From positions 36,855-72,124 of the forward strand of contig JAVHYA010000008.1 in NCBI GenBank assembly GCA_031119395.1: a stretch of 35,270 nt of DNA. The letters run 5' to 3'. Shown here one piece after another: positions 19,693-30,463 of this stretch (positions are counted from its first letter, which is position 1; every line of letters begins with the position of its first letter). A program made the translations under genes and the position numbers. This DNA is from Pseudomonadota bacterium. GTDB taxonomy: Bacteria > Pseudomonadota > Gammaproteobacteria > Burkholderiales > Burkholderiaceae_C. The notes under the pieces are model-generated. The model searched no databases. It was not told where the DNA came from and saw only the letters and a list, made by a program, of their open reading frames with translations.

Positions 19693-19801
19693 GTTTTGTT
19701 GTTGATTCATGGCACGGGTTTTGCGTGATCAACACGACCAACCTGTAGCCGCCGGTGCGGCGCCGGCACCTGACGCCGATCAACCTTTTTTGGAGTTGCT
19801 G

Positions 19802-21046
19802 ATGAACCGCAGAGAAATCCTGATGCAGATGGCTGGCCTGAGCGCGTTGGCGCTGGCGTCGCCCGGCTGGGCCGCCGACGACGACATCGTGGTGGGGGCG
19901 ATCTACCCCATGAGCGGGCCCAACGCCCAGGTGGGCGTCGATGCGCGCCACGCCATCGACACCGCCCTGCAGATCATCAACACGCCCACGCAGGTCGATC
20001 TGCCGGGCGCCGCCGGCGCCGGCATCGCCAGCCTGGGCGGGCGCAAGCTGCGCGTGGTCTATGCCGACCACCAGGCCGACCCGCAGAAGGGCCGCGCCGA
20101 AGCCGAGCGCCTGATCACGCAGGAGAAGGCCGTGGCCATCATCGGCTGCTTCCATTCCTCGGTCGCCGCGACCGTCGGCACCACCTGCGAGCGCTACGGT
20201 GTGCCCTTCGTGTGCGCGGACTCGTCCTCGCCCAGCCTGCACCGCCGCAACCTCAAGACCTTCTTCCGTCCGGCCGCGCACGACGAGATGTTCTCCGAGG
20301 CGATGTTCGACTTCATGGACCTGCAGAAGAAGCAGGGCAAGAAGGTCGAGACCGTGGCCCTGTTCTTCGAGGACACGATCTTCGGCACCGACTCTTCGAC
20401 CGTGCAGCGCAAGCTGGCCGCCGAGCGCGGCTACAAGGTGGCGGCGGACGTCAAGTTCCGCGCCAACTCGCCCTCGCTGTCGGCCGAGGTGCAGCAGCTC
20501 AAGTCGGCCAACGCCGACGTGCTGCTGCCCTCCTGCTACACCACCGACGTCATCCTGCTGATGAACACCTGCACGCAACTGGGCTACAAGCCACGCAACA
20601 TCGTGGCGCAGGCCGCCGGCTTCGTCGAGAAGGCGGCGCTGGACGTGGTGGGCGACAAGCTGCAGGGCATGATCACCCGTGCCAGCTTCGCGCTGGACAC
20701 CGCCGGCAAGCGGCCCTCCATCGCCTTCGTCGATGCCGCCTTCAAGGCCCGCGCCGGCCGCGACCTCAACGACGCCAGCTCGCGCCAGTTCATGGCCGCC
20801 ATCGTGCTGGCCGATGCGCTGCAGCGCGCCGGCTCCACCGACGGCGAGAAGCTGCGCGCCGCCCTGGCGGCCACCGACATCCCGGGCGACAAGACCATCA
20901 TGCCGTGGTCGCGCGTCAAGTTCGACGCCAGCGGTCAGAACACCTTCGCCAGCCCCGTGCTGCAGCAGTTCAAGGGCACGGGCTTCGTCACCATCTTCCC
21001 CACGGCGGTGGCCATGGCCCAGCCCGTGTGGCCGATGAACGGCTGA
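19802..21046 (+). CDS. Liv-type ABC transporter substrate-binding protein
   Basis: The protein has 414 residues. A signal peptide (about 1-24, MNRREILMQMAGLSALALAS, cleavage near GWA) leads to a type I binding protein of the Peripla_BP_6 family: VVGAIYPMSGPNAQVGVDAR at the start, AIIGCFHSSVAATVGTTCER for the ligand pocket region, ending AMAQPVWPMN. It is the first gene of the operon; livH begins 14 bases after its stop. A TGGAG-type Shine-Dalgarno lies 7 bases before the ATG. Liv-family binding proteins take up branched-chain amino acids, amides, urea and aromatic acids. Given its neighbours, a lactam, 5-oxoproline or a related amide is the favoured ligand, by context only. Confidence 0.92.
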   Translation: MNRREILMQMAGLSALALASPGWAADDDIVVGAIYPMSGPNAQVGVDARHAIDTALQIINTPTQVDLPGAAGAGIASLGGRKLRVVYADHQADPQKGRAEAERLITQEKAVAIIGCFHSSVAATVGTTCERYGVPFVCADSSSPSLHRRNLKTFFRPAAHDEMFSEAMFDFMDLQKKQGKKVETVALFFEDTIFGTDSSTVQRKLAAERGYKVAADVKFRANSPSLSAEVQQLKSANADVLLPSCYTTDVILLMNTCTQLGYKPRNIVAQAAGFVEKAALDVVGDKLQGMITRASFALDTAGKRPSIAFVDAAFKARAGRDLNDASSRQFMAAIVLADALQRAGSTDGEKLRAALAATDIPGDKTIMPWSRVKFDASGQNTFASPVLQQFKGTGFVTIFPTAVAMAQPVWPMNG

Positions 21047-21060
21047 GACGGGACCCACGA

Positions 21061-21939
21061 ATGAACGCGCAAGCAATCGCGCAGGTGCTCGCCAGCGGCG
21101 TGCTGATGGGGCTCATGTATGCCCTCATCGCCGTCGGCCTGTCGCTCATCTTCGGGCTGATGGACGTCGTGAACTTCGCCCACGGCGAGTTCCTGATGAT
21201 GGGCATGTACCTCACCTTCGGCCTGGCCGTGGGCCTGCACCTGGACCCGCTGATCGGCATGCCGCTGGTGGGCGCGGTGCTGTTCATGGCCGGCGTGCTG
21301 GTGTACCTGCTGATCGTGCGCCATGCCATGCGGGCCAAGGCCAACGTGGGCATGGTGCAGATCTTCTCCACCTTCGGCCTCGGCACGCTGATGCAGGGCC
21401 TGGCCCAGTACTTCTTCACCCCCGACTACCGCCAGATCAGCGGCAGCTGGCTGGCCAACAAGACGGTGGAGATCGGCGGCGTCTTCCTGCCGCAGCCGCA
21501 GATCGCCGGGGCCGTGGTCTCGCTGCTGGCCTTCGGCGGGCTGTACCTGCTGATGTCGCGCACCGACTTCGGCCGCGCGCTGGAAGCCACGCGCGAGGAC
21601 CAGGGCGCGGTGGCGCTGGTGGGCATCGACCGCAACCGCGTCTTCGCCCTGGGCTGGGGCCTGGGCCTGGCGATGGTCGGCGTGGCCGGCGCCATGCTGG
21701 CCAACTTCTACTACATCCATCCGCAGGTGGGCGGCGCCTTCAGCGGCATCGCCTACGTCGTCGTCGCCCTGGGCGGCTTCGGCAGCGTGTTCGGCGCACT
21801 GGTGGGCGGCGTGGTGGTCGGGCTGGTCGAGGCCATGACCACCCTGGTGCTGCCCGCGTCGCTCAAGACCGTGGGCGTGTATGCCCTGTACCTGCTGGTG
21901 GTCCTGCTGCGGCCCAGCGGCCTTTTCGGGAGACTCTGA
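21061..21939 (+). CDS. Branched-chain amino acid-type ABC permease, LivH family
   Basis: The protein has 292 residues and about eight hydrophobic helices. It carries LivH signatures: LMYALIAVGLSLIFGLMDVV, NFAHGEFLMMGMYLT near the N-terminus, and the cytoplasmic loop ALEATREDQGAVALVGID that contacts the ATPase. It forms the membrane channel together with the next gene. Its stop overlaps the start of that gene by one base (TGATG). Specificity lies in the binding protein rather than in this subunit, so no substrate is inferred. Confidence 0.94.
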   Translation: MNAQAIAQVLASGVLMGLMYALIAVGLSLIFGLMDVVNFAHGEFLMMGMYLTFGLAVGLHLDPLIGMPLVGAVLFMAGVLVYLLIVRHAMRAKANVGMVQIFSTFGLGTLMQGLAQYFFTPDYRQISGSWLANKTVEIGGVFLPQPQIAGAVVSLLAFGGLYLLMSRTDFGRALEATREDQGAVALVGIDRNRVFALGWGLGLAMVGVAGAMLANFYYIHPQVGGAFSGIAYVVVALGGFGSVFGALVGGVVVGLVEAMTTLVLPASLKTVGVYALYLLVVLLRPSGLFGRL

Positions 21940-22973
21940 TGACCGACGCAGCGATTGCTGTTCCCGCCGGCCCTGCGCCGGCCTCGGGTGCGCTGCAGGC
22001 CCATGCCGCACAGCGGCGCCGCCAGTTGCTGACGGGCGCCGTCGTGCTCGTGCTGATGGCCGCCGTGCCACTGCTGGTGCGCGATGCCTACATGCGCAAC
22101 ATCCTGATCCTCACCCTGATGTACGCCGCGCTGGCGCAGGCCTGGAACATCCTGGGCGGCTACTGCGGGCAGATCTCGCTGGGCCATGCGCTGTACTTCG
22201 GTGCCGGCGCCTACGCCACCAGCGTGCTGTTCGTGAATTTCGGCGTGCTGCCGTGGTTCGGCATGGTGGCCGGCGCGGTGCTGGCGGCCGTGCTGGCGCT
22301 GCTGCTGGGCTGGCTGTGCTTTCGCCTCAAGGGCCACTATTTCGCCATCGCCACGCTGGTGATCGCCGAGATCGGCCTGCTGTTGGTGCACAACTGGGAC
22401 TACGTCGGCGCCGCCATGGGCATCCAGTGGCCGCTCGGCGCCGACAGCTGGGCCACGCTGCAGTTCGCGCGCGACAAGGCGCCGTACTTCTACTTCGTGC
22501 TGGGCCTGTTCGCACTGACCTGGCTGATCACCTTCTGGGTGGAGGGCTCGCGCTGGGGCTACTGGTGGCGTGCCGTCAAGGACAACCCCGAGGCCAGCGA
22601 GAGCCTGGGCGTGACGGTGTTCCGCTCCAAGATGGCGGCGGCCGCCCTGTCGGCCAGCCTGACGGCCGTCGCCGGCGGTTTCTACGCAGCCTTCGTGGCC
22701 TACATCGATCCGGACAGCGTCATGCACTTCCGCTTCTCGCTGCTGATGGTGCTGCCGGTGGTGCTCGGCGGCATCGGCACCCTGTGGGGGCCCCTGCTGG
22801 GCGCGGTGATCCTGATCCCGCTGACCGAGGCCATCCGCAGCTACATGGGCGGATCGGGCACCGGCACCGACCTGATCGTCTACGGTGCGCTCGTCATGGG
22901 CGTGGCGGTGCTCAAGCCCGAGGGCCTGATCGGCCTGTTCAGCGGCTGGCGCCGCAAGGCAGGTGCCGCATGA
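21939..22973 (+). CDS. Branched-chain amino acid-type ABC permease, LivM family
   Basis: The protein has 344 residues. A non-conserved 30-residue Ala/Pro-rich N-terminus precedes about eight to ten membrane helices. LivM hallmarks are AQAWNILGGYCGQISLGHAL and the ATPase-contact loop AVKDNPEASESLGVTVFRSK. It overlaps livH by one base and the ATPase gene by four (ATGA), so the four transport genes are translationally coupled. With LivH it forms the heterodimeric channel of the importer. Confidence 0.94.
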   Translation: MTDAAIAVPAGPAPASGALQAHAAQRRRQLLTGAVVLVLMAAVPLLVRDAYMRNILILTLMYAALAQAWNILGGYCGQISLGHALYFGAGAYATSVLFVNFGVLPWFGMVAGAVLAAVLALLLGWLCFRLKGHYFAIATLVIAEIGLLLVHNWDYVGAAMGIQWPLGADSWATLQFARDKAPYFYFVLGLFALTWLITFWVEGSRWGYWWRAVKDNPEASESLGVTVFRSKMAAAALSASLTAVAGGFYAAFVAYIDPDSVMHFRFSLLMVLPVVLGGIGTLWGPLLGAVILIPLTEAIRSYMGGSGTGTDLIVYGALVMGVAVLKPEGLIGLFSGWRRKAGAA

Positions 22974-23732
22974 ATGCCGCCAACGACGCCCGCCTGGCGA
23001 CGACGCCGGGCGCCGACCGGCCCATCCTGCAGCTGACCGACATCTGGCAGCGCTTCGGCGGCCTGGTGGCCAACGCCGAGGTCAGCTTCGACGTGCCCCG
23101 CGGCCAGATCCTCGGCCTCATCGGCCCCAACGGCGCGGGCAAGTCGACGCTGTTCGGCATCATCGCCGGCGCCCGTGCGCCGGTGCAGGGCCAGGTGGTG
23201 TTCGAGGGCCGCGACGTCACCGCGCTGGACGCGCCCGCGCGCTGCGCGCTGGGCATCGCCCGCACCTACCAGGTGCCCCGCTCCTTCGACAGCATGAGCG
23301 TGCTGGACAACGTGATGGTGGGCAGCTTCACCCGCCACACCCGCGCCGCCGCGGCCCGCGAGGCGGCCCTGGACGTGCTGCAGTTCGCCGGCCTGATCGG
23401 GCGCGCATCGGCGTCGGCCGGCGACCTCACGCCGCCCGAGAAGCGCCGCCTGGAAGTGGCCCGCGCCCTGGCCACCGAACCGCGCCTGCTGCTGCTGGAC
23501 GAGGTGATGACCGGCCTGACGCCCAGCGAGGCGCGCAAGGGCGTGGAACTGATCCGCCGCATCCGCGACCGCGGCATCACCGTCATCATGGTCGAGCACG
23601 TGATGGAGATCGTCATGCCCCTGGTGGACCGGGCCATCGTGCTCAACCTCGGGCGCGTGCTCAGCCAGGGCACGCCGCAGGAGGTGGTGCGTGATCCGGC
23701 CGTCGTGGCCGCCTACCTCGGAGACCGCCATC

Positions 23733-23743
<11 letters not shown>
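22970..23743 (+). CDS. ABC transporter ATP-binding protein, LivG family
   Basis: The protein has 257 residues. Walker A is GPNGAGKST (52-60), the switch region is RTYQVPRSFDSMSVLDNVMV, and Walker B is RLLLLDEVMTGLTPSE with H-loop VEHVME. The signature segment is unusual: where LivG normally has a serine-glycine motif such as LSYGQQRRLE, this protein reads LTPPEKRRLEVARAL. The ABC signature serine and glycine are therefore replaced, which might lower its own hydrolysis and leave the canonical site in the partner LivF. It overlaps the LivM gene by four bases. Confidence 0.92.
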
Positions 23744-24440
<697 letters not shown>

Positions 24441-24448
24441 GGCCGGCC

Positions 24449-25243
24449 ATGTCGCATCCCCCCATCTGGCAGCAGCCCGGCGACCTGCGCCGGGCCATCC
24501 GCCGCAAGGAATTCCGCGGCCACACCGCCGGGCAGGCGCCCGGGTACGCGCAGGGCAACCTGGCCATCCTGCCGCGTGCCTACGCCGACGAGTTCCTGCG
24601 CTTCTGCCGCCTCAATCCCAAGGCCTGCCCCGTGATCGGCATGACCGAGCCGGGCGACCCGCGCGTGCCCGAGCTGGGCGCGGACATCGACCTGCGCCAC
24701 GACGTGCCCGCCTACTGCGTCTTTCGCGACGGCGAATTGGTGGAGGAAGTCGCCGACCTGGGCAGCCTCTGGCGGGACGACCTGGTCGGCTTCGTGCTGG
24801 GCTGTTCGCTGTCCTTCGAGGCCGCGCTGCTCGACGCCCGCGTGCCGGTGCGCCACATCGAGGACGACCACCCGGTGCCCATGTACGACACCAGCCTGCC
24901 CAACGGCCGCGCCGGCCGCTTCGGCGGCACCATGGTCGTCAGCATGCGGCCGATGACGCCGGCGCAGGCCATCCGCGCCATCCAGGTCACCTCGCGCTTT
25001 CCGGCGGTGCACGGCGCGCCGGTGCACTTCGGCGACCCGGCCGCCATCGGCATCGCCGACATCGCACGACCCGACTACGGCGTGCCGTCCGGGATGCGCG
25101 AGGGCGAGGTCCCCGTCTTCTGGGCCTGCGGCGTGACGCCGCAGCAGGCCATCCGCGTGGCCCGGCCGCCGCTGGCGATCACGCACAAGCCGGGCTACAT
25201 GCTCGTGGCCGACGTTCGCAACAGCGAACTCGCGGCCTTCTGA
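24449..25243 (+). CDS. Putative hydro-lyase, DUF1445 family (first copy)
   Basis: The protein has 264 residues and belongs to the DUF1445/YcsI family of putative hydro-lyases. The same domain forms the N-terminal half of mammalian D-glutamate cyclase, which interconverts D-glutamate and 5-oxo-D-proline, and a YcsI gene lies in the Bacillus subtilis ycsF-kip cluster. Family blocks seen are [45 protein letters not shown] and [12 protein letters not shown]. It differs from the second copy (26213) in the middle: [20 protein letters not shown] instead of [12 protein letters not shown]. The start at 24449 is 8 bases after livF; an in-frame GTG at 24437 would overlap livF. Its catalytic residues are not known to me. 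Confidence 0.88.
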
Positions 25244-25406: not shown

Positions 25407-26162
25407 ATGCAGATGGACCTCAACAGCGACCTCGGCGAAAGCCTGGGCGCCTGGCGCATGGGCGACGACGCCGCCATGCTCGACATCGTGACCAGCGCCA
25501 ACGTGGCCTGCGGCTTCCACGCGGGCGACCCGGCCGGCATCCTCGCCACGCTGAAGGCGGCGGCCGCGCGCGGCGTGGCCGTGGGCGCGCACGTGGCCTA
25601 CCCCGACCTCGTGGGCTTCGGGCGGCGCGCGATGGACATCGCCAGCGCCGACCTCGTGGCCGGCGTGATCTACCAGATCGGCGCCCTGCGCGGCCTGGCC
25701 GCCGCCGCCGGCACGCAGGTGCGCTACGTCAAGCCGCACGGCGCGCTCTACAACACCATCGCGCACGACGCGCGGCAGGCGCGCGACGTGATCGCCGCGA
25801 TCCGCGCCGCCGACCCCGGCCTGGCGCTGGTCGCGCTGGCCGGCTCGCCGCTGGTGGGCTGGGCCCGCGAGGCGGGGCTGCGCGTGGTGTCCGAGGCCTT
25901 TGCCGACCGCGCGTACACGGCCCAGGGCACGCTGGTGCCGCGCGGCCAGAGCGGCGCGGTGCTGCACGACCCGGCGCAGGTAGCGGCGCGCATGCTGCGC
26001 CTGGTGCGCGAGGGCGTGGTCGAGGCGATCGACGGCAGCCTGGCGCGCATCGAGGCCGACTCGATCTGCGTGCACGGCGACAGCGCCGGCGCCGTCGCGA
26101 TGGCGGCCGAACTGCGGCACGTGCTGCGCGACGCCGGCGTCGAACTGCGCGCCTTCGCCTGA
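25407..26162 (+). CDS. pxpA: 5-oxoprolinase subunit A (LamB/YcsF family)
   Basis: PxpA works with PxpB and PxpC in ATP-dependent opening of 5-oxoproline to glutamate. The 251-residue protein has the family blocks in order: [28 protein letters not shown] (putative metal and substrate site), [30 protein letters not shown] and [20 protein letters not shown]. Many PxpA proteins read AHPSYPD or similar where this one has AHVAYPD, so it may be a subfamily with a related lactam substrate. ATG 25413 is an alternative start two codons later. It is flanked by two DUF1445 genes and followed by the pxpBC fusion and a biotin carboxylase. Confidence 0.9.
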
Positions 26163-26212: not shown

Positions 26213-27028
26213 ATGAGCTTCCCGCTTTCCACCTCCACGGCCCGTGCGCAGGCGGTCCAGGCTGCCCGCACCGCGCGCGAGGCCTACCGCGCCGGCCGCG
26301 CCGAACCCACCGCCGGCGTGGCGCCGGGCATGACGCAGGCCAACATGATCGCGCTGCCGCGCGACTGGGCCTGGGACTTCCTGCTGTACGCACAGCGCAA
26401 CCCCAAGCCCTGCCCCGTGCTCGACGTCATCGAGGCCGGCGAGCACCGCACCGTGCTGGCCGAGGGCGCGGACGTGCGCACCGACATCCCGCGCTACCGC
26501 GTCTGGCGCGACGGCCGGCTGGCCGGGGAAGTGGCGGACGCCACCGCGCTGTGGGCCGAGCATCCGGACCTCGTCACCTTCCTCATCGGCTGCAGCTTCA
26601 CCTTCGAGACGCCGCTGCAGGAGGCCGGCATCGAGGTGCGCCACATCACCCAGGGCTGCAACGTGCCCATGTACCGCACCGCGCGCGCCTGCCGGCCGGC
26701 GGGCCGCCTGCACGGCGAGCTGGTGGTCTCGATGCGGCCGATCCCTGCCCATCGCGTGGCCGATGCGGTGGCCATCTCGGCGCGCTTTCCCTCGGTGCAC
26801 GGCGCGCCGGTGCACGTGGGCGACCCGCAGGCGCTGGGCATCGCCGACCTGGGCCGGCCCGACTTCGGCGACCCGGTGCGCATCGAGCCCGGCGAAGTGC
26901 CGGTGTTCTGGGCCTGCGGCGTCACGCCGCAGGCCGCGGTGATGGCATCGGGCGTGCCCTTCGCCGTGACGCACGCACCGGGCTACATGTTCATCACCGA
27001 CGTGCCGGACAGCACGTACCACGTATGA
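26213..27028 (+). CDS. Putative hydro-lyase, DUF1445 family (second copy)
   Basis: The protein has 271 residues and is the more typical of the two DUF1445 paralogues: [68 protein letters not shown] and [13 protein letters not shown]. The family is linked to D-glutamate/5-oxoproline interconversion through mammalian D-glutamate cyclase, and annotated as a hydro-lyase on general grounds. A GAGGA Shine-Dalgarno precedes ATG 26213. Its stop overlaps the pxpBC start (ATGA), so the two are translationally coupled. The two DUF1445 genes are clearly diverged, so the duplication is old or they were acquired separately. Confidence 0.9.
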
Positions 27029-28728
27029 GCTCCCGCCCGGCCGTACCGACGGGGACGCGCACCGCAGGCGAATCCGAAGCGCCCTCCCTGGGCGCCCGCA
27101 CCGCCCAGGACGCGCCGCAGCGCGCAGGCGCCTCGATGCGCGTGCTGCCCGCCAGCCGGTCCACCGTGCTGGTGGAGCTGGAAGACCTGCCCCAGACGCT
27201 GGGCCTGCTGGCCTCGCTGCAGGAGCGTCCGATCCCGGGCGTGCTCGAGATCGTGCCCGGCGCGCGCACCCTGCTGATCGATTTCGACCCGCTGCGCATC
27301 GACCGCGCAGCGCTGGCCGCCGAGCTGGCCACCCGCCCGCTCACGCTGCGCGAGTCGGAAGCCGGCACCCGCGTGGAGCTGCCGGTGCACTACGACGGCG
27401 AGGACCTCGCCGAGGTGGCGGCGCTGCTCGGCATGACGCCCGAGGAGGTGGTGCGCCGCCACACGGGCACCGACTGGTTCGTGGCCTTCTCCGGCTTCGC
27501 GCCCGGCTTCGCCTACCTGACGGGCGGCGACGAGGCGCTGCACCGGGTGCCGCGCCGCAGCTCGCCGCGCACCCGCATCCCGCCCGGCGCGGTGGCGGTG
27601 GCCGGCGGCTTCAGCGGTGTCTACCCCAAGGCCAGCCCCGGCGGCTGGCAGCTCCTGGGCCAGACGCCCGTGGCCATGTGGGACCTCGACCGGGACCCGC
27701 CGGCGCTGCTGCAGCCCGGCCAGCGCGTGCGTTTCGTCGACGCCGGCCCGCGCCCCGCCACGCCCTTGGCCGCCGCGGCGCCCGCCGCCCCGTCCGCGCC
27801 GCCCGAGGTGCAGGGCCCGGCCCTGGCGGTCCGAAGCCCCGGCCTGCAGGCCCTGCTGCAGGACATGGGCCGTCCCGGCCAGGCCGGCCAGGGCGTGTCG
27901 GTGTCCGGCGCCATGGTGCGCGGTGCGCTGCGCGCCGCCAACCGGCTGGTGGGCAACCCCGCCGATGCCGCCTGCATCGAGGTGGCCCAGGGTGGCTTCG
28001 AGCTGCAGAGCCGGGGCGACACGGTGGTGGCCGTGACCGGCGCTGCCGGCCCCCTGACCCTCACCGCACCCGACGGGCGCAGCTGGCCGGTGCCCCGCCA
28101 CGCGCCCCTGGCGCTGGGCGACGGCGACCGCCTGCGCCTGGGCGAACCCGACGCCGGCGTGCGCAGCTACATCGCCCTGCGCGGTGGCATCGACCGCGCG
28201 CCCGTGATGGGCAGCCTGGCCTTCGACACGCTGGCCCAGGTCGGCCCCGCGCCGCTGGCGGCGGGCGACCTGCTGCCCGTGCGCACCCCCCGGGGCCTGG
28301 GTGCCGTGGCCGAGCCCGATGCGCCGCAGCCCGATCTGCCGCGGCCCGGCGAGCTCGTCGTGCTCGACGTGCTCCTCGGCCCGCGCACCGACTGGTTCAC
28401 GCCCGAGGCGGTGGCGCTCCTCGCCGCGCAGGAATGGACCGTGACGCCGCAGTCCAACCGCGTCGGCCTGCGCGTGCAGGGTGCCGAGCCGCTCGCCCGG
28501 GCGGTCACCCGCGAGCTGCCCAGCGAAGGCACGGCCCTGGGCGCGATCCAGGTGCCCGCCAGCGGCCAGCCGGTGCTCTTCCTGGCCGACCACCCGCTGA
28601 CCGGCGGCTACCCCGTCATCGGCTGCATCGCACCCTGGCACCTGGACCTGGCCGGGCAGATGCCCGTCGGCGCCCGCATCCGCTTTCACATCGTCGCGGG
28701 CTTCGAGCCCATCGATCTCTCACGCTGA
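27025..28728 (+). CDS. Fused 5-oxoprolinase subunits B and C (KipI-KipA)
   Basis: This 567-residue protein joins PxpB and PxpC, which are separate genes in E. coli and B. subtilis. After a 37-residue non-conserved N-terminus the PxpB/KipI part (about 38-245) shows [14 protein letters not shown] and [20 protein letters not shown]. An Ala/Pro-rich linker (about 248-268) leads to the PxpC/KipA part (about 270-562) with [42 protein letters not shown] and [20 protein letters not shown]. KipI-KipA is also the fold of the urea carboxylase carboxyltransferase domain, which matters because a biotin carboxylase gene follows 7 bases later. ATG 27136 (MRVLPASRS) is an alternative start. Confidence 0.92.
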
Positions 28729-28735
28729 ACACACC

Positions 28736-30463
28736 ATGAAGAAAGTCCTGATCGCGAACCGCGGCGAAATCGCCGTGCGCATCGCCCGCGCCTGCGCCGA
28801 CTACGGCGTGCGCTCGGTCGCCGTGTATGCCGACCCCGACATCGATGCCCTGCACACGCGCGTGGCCGACGAGGCCTGGGGCCTGGACGGCCACCGCCCG
28901 GCCGACACCTACCTCGCGATCGACAAGCTGCTGGCCGTGGCACGCAGGAGCGGCGCCGACGCCGTGCATCCGGGCTACGGCTTCCTGTCGGAGAACGCGG
29001 GCTTCGCCCAGGCCGTGATCGACGCCGGGCTGACCTGGATCGGCCCGCCGCCCGCGGCCATCGCGCGGCTGGGCGACAAGGTCGAGGCGCGGCGCATCGC
29101 GCTGAAGGTCGGTGCGCCGCTGGTCGAAGGCACGGCCGACCCGGTGAAGGACGCGGCGCAGGTCGAGGCCTTCGCGCGGCAGCACGGCCTGCCCATCATC
29201 ATCAAGGCGGCCTTCGGTGGCGGGGGGCGCGGCATGAAGATCGCGTGGCGCCTCGACGAGGTGGCCGAACTCTACGAATCGGCGGTGCGCGAGGCCGTCA
29301 CGGCCTTCGGCCGAGGCGAATGCTTCGTCGAGCAGTTCCTCGACAAGCCGCGCCACATCGAGGCCCAGGTGATCGCCGACGCGCACGGCCATGTGCTGGT
29401 GCTGGGCACGCGCGACTGCTCGCTGCAGCGACGCAACCAGAAGCTGGTGGAGGAAGCGCCCGCGCCCTTCCTCGACGCGAGCCAGCGCGAGCGCATCCAC
29501 GCCGCGGCGCGCGACATCTGCGCCGAAGCCGGCTACGTCGGCGCCGGCACGGTCGAGTTCCTGCTCAGCGCCTCCGGCGCGATCTCCTTCCTCGAGGTGA
29601 ACACCCGGCTGCAGGTCGAGCACCCGGTGACGGAGGAGACCTGCGGCCTGGACCTGGTGATCGAGCAACTGCGGGTGGCCGACGGCCTGCCGTTGACGCT
29701 GAAGGAGACGCCGGCGCCGCGCGGCCACGCGATCGAATTCCGCATCAACGCCGAGGACGTGGGCCGCGGCTTCCTGCCCGCGCCGGGCCCGGTCGACGTG
29801 TTCGAGCCGCCGGGCGGACCCGGCGTGCGGGTGGACAGCGGCGTCCACGCCGGCGCGGTGGTGCCCGGCAGCTTCGACTCGCTGATGGCCAAGCTGATCG
29901 TGACGGGGGCCACGCGCGCGCAGGCGCTGGCGCGTGCGCGCCGCGCGCTGGCGGAGTTCCGCATCGAGGGCCTGCCCACGGTGCTGCCCTTCCACCGCGC
30001 CGTGCTGCAGCAGCCGGACTTCATCGGCGACGACGGATTCAGGGTCCACACCCGCTGGATCGAGACCGACTTCGCCGAGACGCTGGCCGCCGCCGCGCGC
30101 GCCGAACCCCAGGCCGCCGAGCCCCTGCAGCGCACCGCCATCGAGATCGACGGCCGGCGCGTCGTGCTGGGCCTGCCCGCCGTGCTGCTGCGCGCGCTGG
30201 CCGCCGGCGGCCCGGGCACAGGCGCGCCGGTGCAGGACGCGCCGGCTGCCGACCCCGCCGCCGTGACGGCGCCGATCGCCGGCACGCTGCAGGCCTGGAA
30301 GGTGGACGACGGCGCCGAGGTGACCGAGGGCGAAACCCTGGCCGTCATGGAGGCGATGAAGATGGAGATGCAGGTGACGGCGCATCGCGGCGGGCGCCTC
30401 ACGCGCCAGGCCGAGGCCGGCCGGCACGCGGCGGCGGGCAGCGTGATCGCGCGCATCGACTGA
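28736..30463 (+). CDS. Biotin carboxylase with C-terminal biotinyl domain
   Basis: The protein has 575 residues. The biotin carboxylase part (about 1-445) starts [20 protein letters not shown], carries the ATP-grasp glycine loop GGGGRGMK (161-168), ERRNQKL-type [11 protein letters not shown], and the catalytic [16 protein letters not shown]. After a linker comes a BCCP domain with EAMKMEM, biotinyl lysine K542. There is no carboxyltransferase domain here and none of the usual acyl-CoA carboxyltransferase genes beside it. It starts 7 bases after pxpBC. It resembles acyl-CoA carboxylase alpha subunits, but its placement suggests that PxpBC, homologous to the urea carboxylase carboxyltransferase, is its partner. 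Confidence 0.92.

Follow-up and report, generated by a model that had tools for sequence, protein, structure and literature searches.

The window analysed here, a stretch of 35,270 nucleotides from contig JAVHYA010000008.1 of a Pseudomonadota bacterium (assembly GCA_031119395.1), carries five co-directional, closely spaced genes that encode in turn a PF07286 protein, PxpA, a second PF07286 protein, a fusion of PxpB with PxpC, and a protein that joins a biotin carboxylase (BC) and a biotin carboxyl carrier protein (BCCP) in one chain. Our subject is the last two, the PxpB-PxpC fusion and the BC-BCCP protein, and the enzyme that they may form together. The features are as follows.

24449-25243, + strand: PF07286 D-glutamate cyclase family protein, copy 1 (family searches)
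25407-26162, + strand: PxpA (LamB/YcsF), predicted lactam hydrolase (family searches)
26213-27028, + strand: PF07286 D-glutamate cyclase family protein, copy 2 (family searches)
27025-28728, + strand: PxpB-PxpC fusion, urea-carboxylase-type carboxyltransferase (Pfam/NCBIfam, structure match)
28736-30463, + strand: BC-BCCP, AccA3-like alpha subunit, 575 aa (Pfam, tree)
30359-30361, + strand: codon of K542, predicted biotinylation site, in an EAMKM motif (motif, alignment)

The stop codon of the fusion ends at 28728 and the ATG of the BC-BCCP gene lies at 28736, which leaves a gap of 7 bases, and these coordinates, given in an earlier sequence-only reading of this DNA, proved correct. The fusion is a single 567-aa protein matched by PF02682 (CT_C_D, residues 38-229, E 8e-64) and PF02626 (CT_A_B, residues 290-555, E 3e-81). 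Its AlphaFold2 (AF2) model (predicted local distance difference test, pLDDT, 84.2) retrieved in Foldseek, in this order, T. thermophilus TTHA0988 (template modelling score 0.76), M. smegmatis MSMEG_0435-0436, E. coli YbgJK and K. lactis urea amidolyase/urea carboxylase; the two Pfam families and this fold match bear out the homology of PxpB and PxpC to the carboxyltransferase (CT) of urea carboxylase that the earlier reading had claimed. The second protein is matched by PF00289, PF02786, PF02785 and PF00364 and has the biotinyl motif MKM at residues 541-543, which places the biotin site at K542, as predicted beforehand. Residues K115, K157, H207, E274, E287, N289, R291, E295, R336 and K542 are invariant in 28 of 28 aligned rows, and we take the roles of those in the BC from E. 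coli BC; judged by these positions, both the BC and the BCCP of the window protein are intact. The AF2 model of BC-BCCP has a pLDDT of 79.5. By Pfam, then, BC, BCCP, CT_A_B and CT_C_D are encoded together, so the claim that all parts of a biotin-dependent carboxylase lie here holds.

Relatives of the pair were gathered with the fusion as query, taking one genome per species: 228 stretches matched the pattern, 163 of them held a relative, and the best 80 (L015-L094) were kept. These are mostly from Comamonadaceae and so are not independent, and the presence of the fusion in all 80 is query bias. In 79 of these best 80 a BC homologue lies directly 3' of the fusion on the same strand, the match edges being 6-332 bases apart; the exception, L064, reaches its contig end 15 bases past PxpC. 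BC and BCCP share one open reading frame (ORF) in 78 loci (L041 is cut by a contig end), and PxpA, found in 76, is less strictly linked than the BC, with three loci having no PxpA in the stretch (L053, L057, L062) and one being too short (L089). Surveys of Burkholderiales and Pseudomonas, which are not neighbourhood-biased, used BC-BCCP as query and scored the best six candidates or fewer per genome. Among 200 Burkholderiales genomes, 82 have a PF02626 match and seven a BC-BCCP match at E <= 1e-150, and all seven of the latter sit 46-229 bases from a PF02626 match. Among 199 genomes of Pseudomonas, the genus of L065, the BC occurs in 27 and the fusion in the same 27, always on one contig and strand with 20-59 bases between matches. 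At this threshold the BC was found only beside PxpBC in the carriers from both groups (27/27 and 7/7). The 149 actinobacterial genomes gave 44 BC-BCCP matches at E <= 1e-150 in 40 genomes, of which two (G312:C4 and G334:C17) adjoin a PxpB-PxpC fusion; among the remaining matches, those compared proved to be AccA3-like genes or remoter BCs located elsewhere. Linkage in the 80 loci, the Burkholderiales and Pseudomonas rules out a chance neighbourhood, and there is a high probability that the fusion and BC-BCCP form one functional unit.

The window protein also stands apart from the other carboxylases of its own genome. No PF01039 match lies near it, in agreement with the prior statement that no acyl-CoA carboxyltransferase adjoins the BC-BCCP gene. 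The genome as a whole has six PF01039 matches and six BCs. Two of the PF01039 matches (C37 and C129) each adjoin a BC, that at C34, at a contig end, is about 2.1 kb from one, that at C48 shares an ORF with a BC, and that at C84:3200 is AccA by NCBIfam. The sixth, at C69, is taken as AccD from the PF01039 match alone, the chosen ORF being without an NCBIfam match; with C69 so read, no unpaired acyl-CoA CT is left among the six. Since the other five BCs are accounted for by position or, at C141, as AccC, the window BC is the only one without an acyl-CoA CT. Pfam found no BT domain between the BC and BCCP of the window protein, a region we judged by Pfam domains, and found one in two other alpha subunits of the genome (PF18140 in C37, PF21139 in C34). 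In the survey of such enzymes in PMC3199775, the BT domain docks to acyl-CoA CTs. The one AccA3 that we tested by Pfam has no BT domain either, so its absence from the window protein is weak support and does not exclude an acyl-CoA partner. With the same architecture as AccA3 and a place in its clade, BC-BCCP fits an AccA3-type alpha subunit.

That clade was recovered in a tree of 69 BC domains, where window-type BCs and actinobacterial AccA3 form a single group (35 rows, 100/100). A pxp-linked actinobacterial BC, L220, branches on the side of AccA3 (92/80), and the BC may therefore have been captured twice. In a tree of 76 PxpC halves, made by a quick method and with support under 80 at 26 of its 73 inner branches, the window type forms one clade of 24 (99), nested in a clade of 39 rows (99) with MSMEG_0435-like proteins; the window fusion and the genome's other pxp copy lie in separate clades. 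A solved structure names relatives of both proteins. PDB 9yx5 (released 2025-11-26) is titled as an M. smegmatis long chain acyl-CoA carboxylase complex with MSMEG_0435-MSMEG_0436 bound. The window BC-BCCP has its best match in the AccA3 chain of this entry (737 bits, residues 2-574), the top matches of the PxpC and PxpB halves include the two remaining chains, and L217, a MSMEG_0435-like protein, matches chain V of the entry with 468 bits. By sequence comparison the window proteins are thus sisters of actinobacterial proteins named in one solved complex. Expression of MSMEG_0435 and MSMEG_0436 rose 2.2-2.4-fold on nitrogen limitation in the data of PMC4617892.

Elsewhere in the BC tree lie type B (a separate BC gene, four loci), type C (a divergent BC, five rows, with two type D rows) and, beside urea carboxylase, the type D locus L129. 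By these placements, phylogenetically separate BC lineages adjoin PxpB/PxpC in other bacteria. Among the loci collected, eight hold other split carboxylase-like sets (L204, L206, L208, L210 and L214 from actinobacteria; L236, L233 and L129 from the class and order samples of the window genome), in which PxpB/PxpC-like proteins with the urea carboxylase lysine have a lone BC nearby and, in six of eight, PxpA. Neither BLAST nor motif searches found a BCCP near these eight sets, and no fused BCCP was found in the long PxpB proteins of types C and D. Four actinobacterial operons (L203, L205, L207, L212) combine PxpB, PxpC, a separate BC and PF07286, with PxpA in three and a BCCP or biotin-motif ORF in three; their functions are similar and their BC lineage different.

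What the pair acts on is indicated by its neighbours. Among the 80 loci, homologues of DUF969 and DUF979 occur in 36 each, of pyroglutamyl peptidase in 31 and of PF07286 in 34 (L031, for example, has DUF969, DUF979 and pyroglutamyl peptidase genes before pxpA), and at least one of these occurs in 71, the nine without being L047, L050, L056, L058, L060, L079, L082, L088 and L089. Pyroglutamyl peptidase releases 5-oxoproline and D-glutamate cyclase (Pfam PF07286) yields 5-oxo-D-proline; both would supply 5-oxoproline, possibly of opposite hand, and by its predicted gene content the pxp neighbourhood points to 5-oxoproline as the substrate. Peptidase and PF07286 stand together in only two of the 80 loci, a count uncorrected for relatedness, and each operon looks as if specialised for one source or enantiomer of 5-oxoproline. 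The window genome fits this split: its second pxp locus (G000:C162, L095) combines pxpB-pxpC-pxpA with a homologue of pyroglutamyl peptidase and shows no BC over 16 kb, while PF07286 genes occur twice in the window. Immediately upstream of pxpB at that second locus, the gene tried as the peptidase is CoaD; the Pcp homologue lies elsewhere in the stretch. Upstream of the pxp genes in the window lies a transporter that could possibly import their substrate:

19709-24440, + strand: branched-chain-amino-acid-type (Liv/Urt-type) ABC transporter, upstream
19709-21046, + strand: ABC transporter binding protein
21939-22973, + strand: ABC transporter LivM-like protein
22974-23743 and 23691-24440, + strand: ABC transporter ATPases (named from sequence alone)

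The gene downstream of BC-BCCP is, we presume from its sequence, isocitrate dehydrogenase-like.

Taken together, we consider it probable that the fusion and BC-BCCP are two subunits of one biotin-dependent carboxylase, a split relative of urea carboxylase that acts together with PxpA to hydrolyse 5-oxoproline (pyroglutamate). By analogy with urea carboxylase, the biotin on K542 would be carboxylated by the BC domain at the expense of ATP and bicarbonate, the BCCP would swing to the CT of PxpBC, and the carboxyl group would be moved to the lactam nitrogen of 5-oxoproline; PxpA would then hydrolyse the activated, N-carboxylated lactam, and the resulting N-carboxyglutamate would lose CO2 to give glutamate. 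We infer that these two particular proteins form a complex, that the carboxyl group moves in this direction and that an N-carboxyl intermediate arises. Because bicarbonate would be returned, the net reaction would be that of the known ATP-dependent 5-oxoprolinase, and with the net equation unchanged biotin dependence would be invisible in growth tests and genetics. The partnership is well supported and the chemistry is a proposal.

Several observations weigh against this proposal. The general base described for urea carboxylase, K1605 of K. lactis urea amidolyase (PMC5770610), aligns with R177 in the window, mapped both by alignment and by numbering through L125 (a hand count). All 17 rows of urea carboxylase and of types C and D have the lysine; all 24 type A rows have arginine there, as do types A, B and E and the BC-less group taken together (59 of 59). 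The lysine would have been expected of a plain copy of urea carboxylase, so the two enzymes do not simply share one carboxyl acceptor site: either the arginine or another residue acts as base, or the chemistry differs. Glutamine 209 of PxpB (in PGGWQ), a candidate marker of BC association that was the strongest of 379 columns (57/57 against 3/19 of BC-less proteins), failed its control, for E. coli YbgJ and B. subtilis KipI, both presumably without a linked BC, also have Q there; on the tree it amounts to two or three independent pairs only (sign test p 0.5-1). What 9yx5 offers here is its title and chain lists, evidence in relatives that both protein kinds associate. AccA3, the closest characterised relative, is described as a shared alpha subunit that pairs with acyl-CoA CTs (PMC11001197). 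B. subtilis and C. glutamicum cannot use 5-oxoproline without PxpABC, and the C. glutamicum paper names no BC in the pxp operon of either (PMC13274462), so a linked BC is not required for all PxpABC. That paper also describes phosphorylation by PxpBC as an assumption, and an 18O study cited in PMC8453981 reports, by its title, a phosphorylated tetrahedral intermediate for a 5-oxoprolinase. PxpB and PxpC show ATP hydrolysis activity according to PMC8453981, which cites another paper for it. The idea of a split urea-carboxylase-type enzyme is thus supported in part: linkage, 9yx5, the separate BC lineages and the 5-oxoproline neighbourhood favour the partnership, and the acceptor site (K1605 to R177) is not simply urea carboxylase's own.

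Some of the same points would suit an ordinary, phosphorylating PxpABC whose BC-BCCP neighbour is a co-regulated alpha subunit for an acyl-CoA CT elsewhere in the cell: AccA3 is such a shared subunit and, in the one case tested, likewise has no Pfam BT domain, and PxpABC works in B. subtilis and C. glutamicum with no BC named in the operon. We regard this as unlikely, since the genome has no unpaired acyl-CoA CT (given C69 as AccD, a call without a family match), the BC at E <= 1e-150 occurs only beside PxpBC in both surveys, with up to six best candidates scored per genome, and a structure of AccA3 itself includes bound homologues of PxpB/PxpC. The carboxylase might instead be real and its substrate another lactam, amide or imide, carboxylated on N or C, with PxpA acting on the product. 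The BC-less second pxpBCA locus with its pyroglutamyl peptidase homologue could handle ordinary 5-oxoproline, the window has the Liv/Urt-type transporter and two PF07286 genes, and the putative base differs from that of urea carboxylase; against this, the peptidase (31/80), DUF969 with DUF979 (36/80) and PF07286 (34/80) all point towards L or D 5-oxoproline, and we think such a substrate distinctly unlikely.

We give very little credence to a regulatory or moonlighting complex, in which BC-BCCP would bind PxpBC with no carboxyl transfer. The title of 9yx5, with MSMEG_0435-0436 bound to a carboxylase complex, could by itself mean regulation, but PxpBC has the CT fold of urea carboxylase, the catalytic residues of BC and BCCP do not vary among 28 rows, and BCs of separate lineages are repeatedly found next to PxpB/PxpC, something that a regulatory role would not call for.

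The proposed split carboxylase shares with urea carboxylase (K. lactis; PDB 3va7, 5i8i; TIGR02712) a BC, a BCCP and a two-part CT (CT_A_B, CT_C_D), as well as the logic of amide-nitrogen activation followed by a hydrolase. Unlike urea carboxylase, which is one polypeptide in the order BC-CT_AB-CT_CD-BCCP, the window has two, CT_CD-CT_AB and BC-BCCP, with an arginine for the general-base lysine, a BC of AccA3-like lineage and scores far below the TIGR02712 cut-off of 1303.85 bits (PxpBC 149.6, BC-BCCP 483.7). With the PxpABC systems of B. subtilis (YcsF-KipI-KipA) and E. coli (YbgJK and, presumably, a third gene) the window has PxpA, PxpB and PxpC in common, and with the B. subtilis operon a YcsI companion and, in some window relatives, the NRAMP protein YcsG; its PxpB and PxpC differ in being fused and in a separate clade, with BC-BCCP as an extra conserved partner. 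PxpA passes its family cut-off (NF003814, 362.6 bits against 226). The fusion falls below the PxpB equivalog TIGR00370 (136.8 against 145.55 bits) and the PxpC equivalog NF045499 (162.5 against 500); the genome's BC-less copy passes the former (252.7 bits) and misses the latter (337.1 bits) as well, so the PxpC cut-off does not separate the two copies. The mycobacterial complex 9yx5 names homologues of both window proteins in one structure, but AccA3 is a general subunit there and PxpB and PxpC are separate chains, whereas the window BC-BCCP is a dedicated copy in a pxp operon.

The S. aureus operon is also similar in bringing pxp and BC/BCCP genes together, with accB and accC separate: its six genes include pxpB, pxpC, pxpA, accB and accC and are listed under fatty-acid synthesis and amino-acid metabolism (PMC11315280). 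With that operon in print, the linkage of pxp and BC genes is in itself nothing new; L. pentosus has been noted to have an additional BC/BCCP copy as well as pxpB/pxpC genes (PMC12427679), and a 2011 survey noticed split CT homologues and called them unstudied (PMC3199775). The P. putida 5-oxoprolinase has two components, of which component A is described as a hexamer of 64 + 51 kDa dimers with oxoproline-dependent ATPase activity, in passages that make no mention of biotin (PMC8453981). For two Pseudomonas pairs we computed 61.3-61.6 kDa for BC-BCCP and 55.7-57.0 kDa for PxpBC, a suggestive and not a close match. We found no paper on biotin-dependent PxpABC or on 9yx5 in the openly licensed literature (CC0/CC BY/CC BY-SA), a search that does not prove absence from print; in the literature searched the enzyme identity and mechanism of the pair appear untested.

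A wider and rather doubtful extension is that all prokaryotic 5-oxoprolinase is biotin-dependent, its CT being fed by a dedicated BC here, by AccA3 in actinobacteria, by AccB/AccC in the S. aureus operon and, in E. coli and B. subtilis, by housekeeping AccBC acting in trans; the assumed phosphorylation would then be wrong for this family and component A of P. putida would be this pair. PxpABC is present in the majority of prokaryote genomes analysed, according to a survey cited in PMC13274462. If true, a biotin-dependent PxpABC would be a concrete alternative to the assumed phosphorylation for coupling ATP to lactam opening, would add the lactam nitrogen to the substrates of biotin carboxylases, and would explain why one enzyme is annotated under two unrelated names, the fusion as 'urea amidolyase family protein' or '5-oxoprolinase/urea amidolyase family protein' and BC-BCCP as 'biotin carboxylase N-terminal domain-containing protein'.

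Some smaller observations concern the two genes and their surroundings. The annotated start of pxpBC overlaps the second PF07286 gene by 4 bases. In 61 of the 80 loci the match of the relatives begins at residue 32-39, and the AF2 model predicts disorder for residues 1-35; M38 at 27136 is therefore the likelier start and 27025 is probably too early; the 37-residue N-terminal extension (27025-27135) is mostly uncovered by relatives. One Pseudomonas-genus copy of the fusion (G554:C1:4985111-4986715) has an in-frame TGA. At E <= 1e-60, 72,556 plasmid records gave relatives of the fusion on 199, of which 95 are from Klebsiella; three such regions, L242, L243 and L244 (the last from Klebsiella pneumoniae pL5201, IncFIB), each combine the fusion and a BC gene with pxpA and a 'putative hydro-lyase'. 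In L065, L243 and L244, a gene for an NRAMP-family transporter immediately precedes pxpA. In B. subtilis, ycsG shares the pxp operon and its product imports manganese (PMC10448178), and by analogy PxpA or the BC may need Mn.

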